A DNA stretch of 64,000 bases, taken from assembly GCF_000177635.2 (NCBI RefSeq), contig NC_014836.1:2120001-2184000 (forward strand), written 5' to 3'. The notes beneath the pieces are model-generated. The model saw only the letters and a list, made by a program, of their open reading frames with translations. It searched no databases and was not told the DNA's origin. The translations under genes were made by a program, and so were the position numbers. How positions within the stretch are numbered: position 1 is the first letter of the stretch; every line of letters starts with the position of its first letter. This stretch comes from Desulfurispirillum indicum S5 (GTDB taxonomy: Bacteria > Chrysiogenota > Chrysiogenetes > Chrysiogenales > Chrysiogenaceae). Of this stretch, positions 32 through 63,467 are shown in pieces.

Positions 32-393
32 GTCCTTTTTGACCGCACAAAAAGGACACAAAAACGCGCCCCCCGAACGCCCGTTTTTCCGGCTCGTTGG
101 CTCGCCTGTTCTGGAGATCCGACAGCAGGCTGATCAAAGAGGCCCATCTGCTGCGTTGCCGGGCATCGCTCGTCACTGCGACGTACAGGGAGTACGCCTC
201 CCTCCTCGCTTTGCCCGCGCCTTGCACCTGGGTCTCTTTGCGTTGCCTGACCCCTGCCTCCCTGCAGTGCTGCCGGACCACTCACTTCCTGTGAGTGTCC
301 CGTTCGGGTCTTGCCAGCCAGGCGTCGCACTCACCGGACGGGCTCAGGGGGGACGGCCTGCTTCTGCCTCTCCCCCGTGTGCTGGCCCAGCCA
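32..393 (+). repeat. Structured dispersed repeat, copy A (with nested 124-nt module)
   Basis: This stretch aligns nearly end to end with 57646-58008 and, without its middle, with 63193-63388. It opens with a perfect 10-bp hairpin (32-41 with 48-57), then a C-rich stretch, a CCGACAG/CTGCCGG pair that flanks a 124-nt module (126-249), and a CACTCAC/GTGAGTG hairpin. Open frames run through it in several phases, but they simply translate the repeat. I see no ribosome binding site or recognisable protein. The function is unknown; it could be a mobile non-autonomous element or a structured RNA. Confidence 0.85.
126..249 (+). repeat. Nested 124-nt module with imperfect terminal inverted repeats, copy A
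   Basis: The module begins CAGGCTGATCAAAGAGGCCC and ends GGGTCTCTTTGCGTTGCCTG, so its ends are near-complementary over about 20 nt. It matches 57740-57863 almost exactly and 53319-53440 (opposite orientation) in a diverged form. The conserved core includes the string GTACAGGGAGTACG. Confidence 0.8.
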
Positions 394-543
394 GAACGCG
401 CCGACTGGAACGCTATGGACCCGCAGGGTTGACGCCACGACGGCGGCAACCGCAAACCAAAAGCCATGGAGGGCGGTTGTTTGCGGTCCCCAGTTCCAGG
501 CAAGCGGGCGGCTGATAAGGACAGCACTGGGGGTCGCTTCCCA

Positions 544-52668: not shown

Positions 52669-53295
52669 ATGCCAACGGCTGCCCCCCTCAAGACCTACTA
52701 TCTGGCCCGCCATGGGCAAGTGGAAGAAGCCTTCCACGGAATCTTTTACGGCTGGCTCGACCCCGGACTCTCAGACCTCGGACACCAGCAGGCCGGCAGG
52801 CTGGCCCACCACCTGAACACCCTGGAGCTCGCCTTTGACGCCTGCTACAGCTCCGATCTGCAGCGCTGCCACCACTCCCTGCAGACCATGGCCCTGCACG
52901 GCGCTCGCCTTCCCGATCCCCTGGTATTGCCGGGACTGCGCGAAAAGAACATGGGCAAAGCCGAAGGACTGCCATTCCATCAGGTGCTGCAGCAGTACCC
53001 GCACCTGCACCCCAAGGGACGCAACTGGCTGGAGGTGGAAGAGGGCGAAAGCCTGGCCCAGTTCACCAGACGGGTGCAGACCGCCTGGGAAGAAGTGCGC
53101 CGCAGCGCCCCGGCCGGCAACTCCTTGATCATGTGCCACGGAGGAGTGATCCGCGTCGTCGTGGCGCACCTGCTGCACTGCCCTCTGCGCGCCCTCTCCC
53201 ATATGCGGGTGGACCACTGCTCCCTGACCATCATCGAGGAGTACGAGGACAGCCTGGCCCTGCGCAGCCTCAACCGACAAATCCACCTCTCATAG
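52669..53295 (+). CDS. Histidine phosphatase superfamily protein (CobC/phosphoglycerate mutase-like)
   Basis: A 208-residue phosphatase with the 'LARHGQ' signature (phospho-His15) and the second histidine in 'MCHGGVIR' near 164. The size and motif spacing fit alpha-ribazole phosphatase or a general phosphatase rather than a glycolytic mutase. There is a possible link to B12 synthesis, since the organism uses a B12-dependent reductase, but no cob genes adjoin, so the substrate is unknown. It is divergent from hisD with about 105 nt between them. AGGAAA precedes the ATG. Confidence 0.85.
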   Translation: MPTAAPLKTYYLARHGQVEEAFHGIFYGWLDPGLSDLGHQQAGRLAHHLNTLELAFDACYSSDLQRCHHSLQTMALHGARLPDPLVLPGLREKNMGKAEGLPFHQVLQQYPHLHPKGRNWLEVEEGESLAQFTRRVQTAWEEVRRSAPAGNSLIMCHGGVIRVVVAHLLHCPLRALSHMRVDHCSLTIIEEYEDSLALRSLNRQIHLS

Positions 53296-53318
53296 CCTGC
53301 TGAAATACATAAAACAAG

Positions 53319-53440
53319 CAGGCAGTTGAAAAATACTCAGGTGCAAGGCGCTCGCGGAGCGAGTTATGAAGCATACTCCCCGTACATTGCAATGACGAGT
53401 GACTACGAAAACACCGCAGATGAGGTTTTTCAGCAGCCTG
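53319..53440 (-). repeat. Solo 122-nt repeat module with compensated terminal inverted repeats
   Basis: A diverged, inverted relative of the modules at 126-249 and 57740-57863. Its ends, CAGGCAGTTGAAAAATACTC and the reverse complement of CAGGCTGCTGAAAAACCTCA, still pair, although their sequence differs from that of the other copies. It sits 24 nt after the phosphatase stop. Confidence 0.75.
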
Positions 53441-53448
53441 CAAAAAAA

Positions 53449-53479
53449 GAATCCCCCGGCGACAATCGTCGGGGGATTC
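53449..53479 (-). terminator. Terminator after dctP
   Basis: A 9-bp stem GAATCCCCC/GGGGGATTC with a further paired inner part, followed on the minus strand by seven T. Confidence 0.92.
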
Positions 53480-53518: not shown

Positions 53519-54550
53519 CTACTTGTCCTTCAGGTACTCCCGCACCTGCTGAACGTACTCGCTGCCAATGCGGGGCTCCCACTGCTCATACACCGGCTTG
53601 GCCATACGCTCCAGGGTTTGCAGATCCTCCTCACCCAGGCGCACAAAGGTGACTCCGTTTGCCTTGGCTGCCGCGATCTGGTCTTCCTGCTGCTGACGAC
53701 CCTTCTGGCGGGCAATGGCGCTTTCCTCGGCCACCACTTCCAGGAATATCTCACGGATATCCTCGGGCAGACGGTCCAGCCAGCGCTTGTTGGTCAGGTG
53801 TACATAGAGGCCCTGGGCGTAATCCACATGGGTGTAGTGCTTGGCGATATCAAACTTGCGCGAGATATTCAGCGTGGTGGGGGTGTGATCCAGCCCGTCA
53901 ATAACGCCGGTCTGCAGGGCCTGGGGGACATCGGGCCAGGGCATGACGGTGAAGCGCAGGTTCCAGGCGCGGTAGATATCGATATTCACTGGAGCCTCGG
54001 CAATGCGGAAGTTTACCCGCCGCGCCTCTTCCAGCGTATTCACCGGCGTGCGGGACGCCCAGCCGTAGGTGCCGTAGGTGGTCACGTCGATAGCCAGCAC
54101 CCCCTGCTGCAGAGGCGCTTCCTGAAAGGTACTGAACAGTTCCTCATTTTCCCGGAAGGCCTCCAGGCGGTCAAAGCTGTTGATGACGAAAGGCAGGTTC
54201 ACCAGGCCCAGACGGTCATTCAGGTTCGCCGCCGCCACCGATGAACAGAGCATACCGTGCACCGCACCCATGCGCAGTTTACTCAGCACATCGCGCTCGC
54301 CACCAAGCTGGGCCAGGGGGCGGAAATCCACATAAAGCTGACCATTGGTGCGCTCCCACACCCGGTCGCGAATGCGATAGCCCACCGCTACGCCTTCAAT
54401 GGCAGGGTGGGAAACATTGGAGAGAATATAGGTGTATTTGGCGCCACTGGGGTCGAATTTAGGTTGCCAGGAAGCCGTCGGATCTTCGGAACCAATGGCC
54501 AGGAAGGGAAAAAACAACAGAGCAAACAGAATCAAAAGTATTTTGCGCAT
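53519..54550 (-). CDS. TRAP-type solute-binding protein, DctP family
   Basis: A 343-residue periplasmic binding protein for organic acids. A signal peptide covers residues 1-20 ('ILLILFALLFFPFLAIG'). The DctP fold is shown by 'FRPLAQLGGERDVLSKLRMG' near 78 and 'MPWPDVPQALQTGVIDG' near 203, where a conserved Arg-containing segment ('VNFRIAEAP') binds the carboxylate. It is an orphan: neither the small nor the large membrane subunit (DctQ, DctM) lies next to it. It may serve a transporter encoded elsewhere or a sensor. Confidence 0.88.
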   Translation of the reverse strand: MRKILLILFALLFFPFLAIGSEDPTASWQPKFDPSGAKYTYILSNVSHPAIEGVAVGYRIRDRVWERTNGQLYVDFRPLAQLGGERDVLSKLRMGAVHGMLCSSVAAANLNDRLGLVNLPFVINSFDRLEAFRENEELFSTFQEAPLQQGVLAIDVTTYGTYGWASRTPVNTLEEARRVNFRIAEAPVNIDIYRAWNLRFTVMPWPDVPQALQTGVIDGLDHTPTTLNISRKFDIAKHYTHVDYAQGLYVHLTNKRWLDRLPEDIREIFLEVVAEESAIARQKGRQQQEDQIAAAKANGVTFVRLGEEDLQTLERMAKPVYEQWEPRIGSEYVQQVREYLKDK

Positions 54551-57645: not shown

Positions 57646-58008
57646 CATACTTTTTGATCGCGCAAAAAGTATGCAAAAACGCGCCCCCCAACGCCCGTTT
57701 TTCCGGATCGTTTGCTCGCCTGTTCTGGAGATCCGGCAGCAGGCTGCTCAAAGAGGCCCATCTGCTGCGTTGCCGGTCATCGCTCGTCACTGCGACGTAC
57801 AGGGAGTACGCCTCCCTCCTCGCTTTGCCCGCGCCTTGCACCTGGGCCTCTTTGCGTTGCCTGACCCCTGCCTCCCTGCAGTGCTGCCGGACCACTCACT
57901 TCCTGTGAGTGTCCCGTGCGGGTCTTGCCAGCCAGGCTTCGCTCTCACCGGACGGGCTCAGGGGGGAACGACTTTCCTCTACCTCTCCCCCGTGTGCTGT
58001 CACAGCCA
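57646..58008 (+). repeat. Structured dispersed repeat, copy B (with nested 124-nt module)
   Basis: A near-identical relative of 32-393. It starts six bases after the TehA-like stop with an 11-bp hairpin (CATACTTTTTG/CAAAAAGTATG), whose stem differs from copy A by compensated bases. The CCGGCAG/CTGCCGG pair encloses the module at 57740-57863. The hairpin could also end the upstream transcript. No gene is supported in 57641-58154. Confidence 0.85.
57740..57863 (+). repeat. Nested 124-nt module with imperfect terminal inverted repeats, copy B
   Basis: Ends CAGGCTGCTCAAAGAGGCCC and GGGCCTCTTTGCGTTGCCTG pair over about 16 of 20 positions. It is inserted directly after GGCAG, a point where copy C continues without it. 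Confidence 0.8.
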
Positions 58009-58034
58009 AGATGCGCATACGGGAACGCAAAAGC

Positions 58035-63192: not shown

Positions 63193-63388
63193 GTCCTTTT
63201 TGACCGCACAAAAAGGACACAAAAATGCGCCCCCGAACGCCCGTTGATCCGGTTCGTTTGTTCGCCTGCTCTGAAGATCCGGCAGAAGCTGCTTCCCTGC
63301 AGCTCTGCCGGACCACCTGCCTCCTGCAGGTGTCCCGTGCGGGTCTTGTCAGTCAGGCTTCACACTCACCGGACGGGCTCAGGGGGGA
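63193..63388 (+). repeat. Structured dispersed repeat, copy C (no nested module)
   Basis: Matches copies A and B at both ends but lacks the 124-nt module. Its CCGGCAG/CTGCCGG pair folds into one long hairpin (63279-63311). The next hairpin is CACCTGC/GCAGGTG (63314-63332), where the other copies have CACTCAC/GTGAGTG. No gene is supported in 63096-63467. Confidence 0.85.
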
Positions 63389-63467
63389 TAGACACAAAGA
63401 AGAAATTTCTCTCGCCAGCAGCCTGTTAAAGACCACTTTGAGTGAAACGTATGAAGGGGGAAAAGAT

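Follow-up and report, generated by a model that had tools for sequence, protein, structure and literature searches.

A worn copy of a non-autonomous MITE-like element in Desulfurispirillum indicum S5 and the kept fold of its family

The window copy and its mobile unit

This analysis concerned a window of 64,000 nucleotides (genome positions 2120001-2184000) in the complete genome of Desulfurispirillum indicum S5, which comprises 2,928,377 bases. The feature under study, at 53319-53440, has a histidine-phosphatase gene (52669-53295, PF00300) on one side and, on the other, a gene for a DctP-type transporter on the minus strand (53519-54550, PF03480). Beside the feature and separate from it, a 14-pair stem at 53449-53479 forms a strong terminator-like hairpin. 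Two further modules in the window, copies A and B, are related to this one, which we refer to as the solo copy (Table 1).

Table 1. Positions of the solo copy, its terminal repeats and the related copies in the window
Feature	Position	Strand	Remarks and basis
Solo-copy hairpin module	53319..53440	-	folds as one hairpin; match of covariance model R1 at genome 2173316-2173443, minus strand, E 8.2e-16
Worn outer terminal repeat, TAGCCTGCTGAAATACA	53293..53309	+	pattern match with 2 mismatches, genome 2173293-2173309
Left terminal repeat of solo copy, CAGGCTGCTGAAAAACC in minus-strand reading	53424..53440	-	sequence; identical repeat in other copies
Copy A	126..249	+	same core as solo copy, other arms, inside larger repeat
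Copy B	57740..57863	+	same core as solo copy, other arms, inside larger repeat
Third copy of larger repeat (C), without hairpin, paralogous empty site	63196..63393	+	direct repeats D2-D4 and sequence

Each of the three modules forms one long hairpin. They have the core GTACRGGGAGTAYGC in common, and their arms read CAGGCTGCTGAAAAACCTCA ... TGAGTATTTTTCAACTGCCTG in the solo copy and CAGGCTG.TCAAAGAGGCCCA ... TGGGYCTCTTTGCGTTGCCTG in copies A and B. The shared core and the differing end blocks with their complementary partners had been described in a first-pass annotation of this DNA, and the sequences agree with that description. All three fold far beyond dinucleotide shuffles on both strands, with z-scores of -3.6 to -5.1 and at most one of 200 shuffles folding equally well. 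The CATCTGC-first reading of the solo module corresponds to the minus strand, and its plus strand is the purine-rich one ('G' strand).

The intact mobile unit measures about 151 bp, is bounded by terminal inverted repeats and has no coding capacity. It consists, in this order, of a left repeat, the hairpin core, an internal inverted copy of the repeat, a short spacer and the right repeat. The flanks of solo-type copies are conserved for a further 26-27 bp on one side, and the conserved stretch closes with another copy of the terminal repeat. Because the true right end is found 26-27 bp beyond the module, the arm at 53319, previously annotated as an end, is internal to the mobile unit. The mobile unit of the solo copy, of about 148 bp, extends past this arm to about 53293, where the worn outer repeat forms its true end on this side and where other copies show target duplications. 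The stop codon of the histidine-phosphatase gene (53293-53295) sits within this worn repeat, and the element may therefore have supplied it.

Identical 4-mers, mostly YTAR, flank the 151-bp unit in 7 of 30 copies of the host genome, for instance TTAA/TTAA, CTAT/CTAT and TTAG/TTAG. Among the loci examined in D. indicum and in a same-family relative (G002), 14 pairs of repeat ends have identical flanking 4-mers, eight of them exactly 151 bp apart. At loci of other bacteria, 4-bp duplications with matching ends were observed in 31 of 111 cases, compared with 49 of 2207 swapped controls, and 11 of these 31 duplications correspond to YTAR. Two 64-bp units that lack the core also carry duplications, as a tandem pair with an internal deletion; we counted them against a mobility that needs the core.

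The 151-bp units with paired ends are short, non-coding and bounded by terminal inverted repeats, as MITEs are, and the family carries target-site duplications (7/30 own copies, 31/111 foreign loci); the solo copy of the window has none at its unit ends (flanks TTTG/TGAG). The solo copy is a worn copy of a non-autonomous MITE-like mobile element, and 53319-53440 covers most of its unit.

Copies in the host and in other bacteria

BLAST searches for which either the solo copy or copy B served as query each gave at least about 40 places in the host genome (the best 40 of 152 and the best 40 of 129 candidates, respectively). Fifty distinct copies brought into one orientation fall into two subfamilies, 24 of the solo type and 26 of the A/B type, which have a common core and different blocks at both arms. 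A covariance model matched at least 119 places in this genome at E<=0.1 and at least 114 at E<=0.01, with 150 of 856 candidates scored; copy numbers from both kinds of search are lower bounds, as part of the candidates was scored. Six of the copies lie in a repeat-rich region at genome positions 546000-565000 (L247), which contains tandem-repeated segments and adjoins porin and prismane genes. The cassette-like look of this cluster, at 552-560 kb, brought integron attC sites into consideration. We rejected a cassette array here: the cluster is a tandem-repeat region, and its genes have no recognised cassette function.

The A/B module was located at no fewer than about 40 places in the genome, and its flanks are the same at most of them. 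The A/B copies are embedded in a larger high-copy repeat, which measures about 200 bp when the hairpin is absent and occupies window positions 35-413, 57650-58028 and 63196-63393. The A/B copies appear to have multiplied inside this larger repeat, and the outer terminal repeat of the solo type was not found in their flanks. Four loci (L057, L065, L067 and L089) contain hybrid modules with CAGGCTGCTGAAAAGCC-like ends at a second place, adjoining GACTGT, a motif that in L057 is part of the far end of the larger repeat. This suggests separate insertions into the same larger repeat.

Outside the host, a two-word core pattern matched at least 120 stretches in named genomes of many bacterial groups. 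The matches listed include many Deltaproteobacteria, Nitrospirae, Pseudomonas, Betaproteobacteria, Selenomonadales, Chlorobiota, Methylomirabilota and Gemmatimonadetes, among others. Five Streptomyces loci (L105, L133, L161, L177 and L199) match the pattern with a longer, mutually similar middle part and are perhaps an unrelated conserved sequence. With the covariance model, 10 of 30 genomes gave matches, namely D. indicum and 9 of 29 relatives; for the two relatives from the same family, the count is 32 copies in G002 and zero in G001. Nine genomes picked for a pattern hit contain from at least two matches, in a Pseudomonas, up to at least 132 in a Selenomonadales MAG and at least 147 in Geothermobacter hydrogeniphilus. 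In the class of the latter, matches at E<=1e-6 were obtained in at least 74 of 117 genomes (29 candidates scored in each). Copy number is high and patchy across genomes. At the level of the queries used, no match was obtained in plasmids (three family members as queries), in phages (one short query) or in viral contigs (pattern search).

GCGTTG and CGCCTTG persist as lasting words, as does CTCA, which precedes the apical stem. Among 18 model-found copies of relatives, GCGTTG is retained in 16 and CGCCTTG in 14. CATCTGC is kept in two of the 18, so this part of the search pattern is not conserved. As the model was trained on pattern-selected rows, the conservation that it reveals is only partly independent. 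The arms vary strongly by group, with examples such as CAGGCTGTTGAAAAACGCC, TGACGGCTTCGTAAAAAGTC and AGTGTTTGAACGAAAACTCACC, and still pair within each locus: over 17 positions in 116 sequences, the mean match of an arm was 12.96 with its own partner, 7.41 with partners swapped between clusters and 7.50 with shuffled partners.

A cognate transposase was not found in searches for DDE_Tnp_1 and Y1_Tnp and in one end-pattern search. The D. indicum genome has 16 DDE_Tnp_1 matches, largely of one insertion sequence with the ends GAGCTTGTCCATAAAT and mostly 3-bp TWA duplications; both traits differ from those of the element, and this insertion sequence was discarded as a parent. YTAR duplications are a trait of the IS5 group, and in the D. 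indicum lineage the element resembles IS5-like insertion sequences in its YTAR-like 4-bp duplications. A derivation from the IS5 family, with the same ends as the DDE_Tnp_1 element of the host, was also rejected, several copy-rich genomes being devoid of DDE_Tnp_1. The domain was absent at E<=1e-5 from four copy-rich relatives, and five other copy-rich genomes gave no match in one case (G036) and one to four in the rest. Y1_Tnp, the RAYT-type domain, gave no match in D. indicum at E<=0.01; the same search was positive in 6 of 14 control genomes. One D. indicum transposase compared with 120 loci gave a chance-level match only. Pairs of repeat ends about 1-2.5 kb apart in G002 were inspected, and the enclosed genes looked ordinary by eye. 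An IS5-like element has 11 nearly identical copies (L214-L224), and its transposase reading is split into two frames in L214, perhaps by programmed frameshifting.

Covariation of the arms and the folded strand

In the 50 host copies, three pairs switch cleanly on both sides between the subfamilies (G-C/C-G, A-T/G-C and T-A/C-G), and two further pair positions are complementary in the A/B type and mostly not in solo-type copies. The earlier observation that both arms changed together is confirmed, with three clean compensatory pairs in this genome. As the switch coincides with a single subfamily split, it amounts to about one event in D. indicum, and the switch in this genome alone cannot therefore demonstrate selection.

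A larger alignment was obtained by sequence-only MAFFT across phyla (A2, 118 rows). It was derived from 121 pattern occurrences by removing the duplicate L181 and five long-core rows (four Streptomyces loci and L161, left out by hand) and adding three host copies; probable chance matches, for example L112, L144, L147 and L174, were kept. The covariation test was R-scape-like, with a G-test, average-product correction and 100 permutations of Fitch-inferred substitutions on a FastTree tree. Eleven column pairs covary beyond this tree null at E<0.05, and ten of them are nested in one hairpin. Six of the ten belong to the outer arm (23-132, 22-133, 19-135, 18-136, 17-137 and 15-139), two to the inner stem (40-116 and 38-118) and two to the apical stem (75-93 and 72-96), and the eleventh, 72-97, is one column off a nested apical pair. 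Covariation in a larger alignment, on which the first-pass annotation had let its proposal stand or fall, therefore exceeds phylogenetic expectation in all three parts of the hairpin.

The structure used for a pairing and shift test was assigned manually, guided by the covarying pairs and by the arms that are visible in the alignment; this test is hence not independent of the covariation test. In this structure, 77.2% of cells pair, compared with 62.1% when partners are shuffled and at most 44.3% when they are slid. The number of cells changed on both sides is 826, against 342 after shuffling, and the covariation score is 0.362, against 0.138 for shuffled and at most 0.145 for slid partners. 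RNAalifold on the raw alignment recovered no more than the apical stem and one small local helix, because the variable stems are misaligned. Three other many-copy genomes contain 94, 57 and 34 cells that changed on both sides and still pair, cells within a genome not being independent; these point to a kept fold or to DNA-level correction between the arms. The mismatches themselves, a TC/TC loop and TT and TTG bulges, are kept across groups; the apical and inner stems vary freely between groups, and GCGTTG and CGCCTTG stay. Since relatives in very different bacteria have changed their letters and retained the same fold, the fold itself seems to matter.

Selection on the fold is well supported, given that the covariation beats the tree null and that the signal is lost once partners are slid or shuffled. 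We are confident that the anatomy of the unit and the kept fold, taken jointly, are correct. The earlier proposal of selection on a folded RNA stands as far as the fold is concerned, and folded single-stranded DNA would fit as well as RNA.

The strand that folds was addressed through pair-breaking transitions, which should give equal numbers of G.U and A.C as long as folding is not confined to one strand. In the outer arm, read on the CATCTGC strand, A.C outnumbers G.U by 132 to 29, which corresponds to an excess of G.U on the plus strand of the window. Counted by clusters, this bias amounts to 19 against 3 with 7 ties (p=0.00086), and with the coarsest clustering to 7 against 1 with 2 ties (p=0.07). 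Within genomes, a ratio of 125 to 73 was obtained over five families, in which cells are not independent. No bias was observed in the A/B subfamily (9 to 9) or in the inner stem overall (71 to 67), the latter being not significant in two of three clusterings. The outer-arm bias is a hint of single-strand folding and is compatible with both RNA and single-stranded DNA.

Readings of the kept fold and related systems

The reading that we tentatively favour, short of calling it probable, is that the element depends on the fold for its own spread and that this dependence maintains the fold. A folded single strand, either single-stranded DNA or a transcript, would be recognised by a putative mobilising protein or by a host factor; a shift in mobilising specificity would bring new terminal repeats, and the pairing partner of the left repeat would have to change accordingly. 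Covariation, the match of each arm to its own partner, target duplications, copy number, compensated cells and the G.U bias of the outer arm argue for this reading. The unsuccessful search for a mobilising enzyme, the absence of bias in the inner stem and in the A/B type, the coreless units and the multiplication of A/B copies inside a larger repeat argue against it.

The strand bias would equally suit a host-useful RNA module, in which transcription from neighbouring genes would include the hairpin, the hairpin would act on mRNA ends, decay or regulation, and mobility would be incidental. The conserved unpaired words beside covarying stems would fit such a module too, and the Geobacter members were termed predicted short RNA elements in 2009 (PMC2700814). 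We regard it as an unlikely, if serious, candidate: the inner stem lacks the bias, no preference of orientation or position is seen in the 15 solo-type copies free of overlapping ORF calls, and 43 of 117 genomes of one class (among the matches listed, at E<=1e-6) and the same-family genome G001 have no match. Compensated changes in large numbers inside single genomes, and folding of both strands, would also be obtained without any selection on the fold, if the arms start as inverted copies, are corrected against each other as an imperfect DNA palindrome and switch ends with transposase specificity. Such templated correction should erase mismatched loops, yet the TC/TC loop, like the TT and TTG bulges, persists across groups; nor does it predict a strand bias or the free divergence of apical and inner stems around constant GCGTTG and CGCCTTG. 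This makes it, in our judgement, the less likely of these two.

The internal arm is an inverted left repeat placed 26-27 bp inside the right repeat, which would be expected if the left end, the internal copy and the right end were three binding sites of one transposase that change together, with pairing as a by-product. Inner-stem and apical pairs, which are not end repeats, covary as well, and we consider this account improbable. The related suggestion of the first-pass annotation, that matched ends are recognised by an enzyme, explains part of the pattern and is restricted by the same inner pairs and by the internal position of the right arm. Runs of A and T flank the stem on either side in many members, as in a two-way intrinsic terminator. 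Such a terminator would need no conserved inner words, the scan called none in the module while detecting the strong one at 53449-53479, and the same 15 copies lie between 3 convergent, 5 divergent and 7 parallel gene pairs, which leaves this function very improbable.

The usual pattern of MITEs, in which the ends are kept and the interior drifts, is reversed in this family, where the folded interior is kept and the ends have changed. This reversal makes a part of the folded single strand in spread testable, and the family can be searched for with the covariance model, which recovers more than 100 copies in some genomes. A mobilising enzyme, if new, would be of interest for studying and engineering transposition, and the hairpin, if it acts as RNA, would represent a widespread module outside Rfam. 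A broader proposal, possible but rather doubtful in our view, is that all copies belong to a single ancient class of mobile folded elements, numbering dozens to hundreds per genome across many phyla and spreading without the two transposase families tested. The conserved and recognised part would be the folded single strand, and the ends would be exchangeable. If true, this would amount either to a novel mode of structure-guided transposition or to a new class of mobile RNA.

Bacterial MITEs such as Chunjie, Correia/NEMIS and ERIC resemble the element in being short and non-coding, with terminal inverted repeats, target duplications, many intergenic copies and a stable hairpin. The element differs from them in that its folded interior is kept across bacterial groups and its ends change, and in that the DDE_Tnp_1, Y1_Tnp and end-pattern searches revealed no parent insertion sequence. 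Chunjie, a MITE of 178-235 bp from Geobacter uraniireducens, was likened to the element on the basis of its published description (PMC10969869). REP, BIME and REPIN sequences with RAYT transposases are likewise high-copy intergenic palindromes, whereas the element is longer, has target duplications and resides in a host genome without Y1_Tnp. The host DDE_Tnp_1 insertion sequence is unlike the element in both its ends and the length of its duplications.

No known Rfam family was recognised: a scan of the window at gathering score reported tRNA only, and seven loci searched at E<=5 gave no relevant match. A search of open-licence literature for TTTTTCAACAGCC gave no paper, and the main texts of open-licence papers yielded no description of the family in several phyla, nor of its mobility or covariation. 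Literature matches to core strings are unrelated, going by titles and opening lines of abstracts, and publications on triplex repeats and GTAG/CGTC-REP sequences describe other elements in the parts available. Multicopy families are mentioned, without detail in the accessible portions, in papers on G. bemidjiensis (PMC2996986), where they include palindromic ones, and on Pelobacter (PMC3543383).

The closest precedent is the 2009 genome paper on G. metallireducens, which reports 24 predicted short RNA elements, intergenic and multicopy, with the central palindrome GRCGTAGCGCTGCTACGCC, as a family of predicted RNA in Geobacter and Desulfotalea (PMC2700814). In its legends and individual passages, mobility, exchangeable ends, other phyla and covariation do not appear. 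This family was matched to the element by its central palindrome only, which is the exact apical hairpin of L172 and L297, two entries of the same Geomobilimonas sequence, and is also present in the divergent L201 and missing from the window copy. Given the identity of this palindrome with the apical hairpin of L172/L297, part of the family was very probably noticed in 2009.
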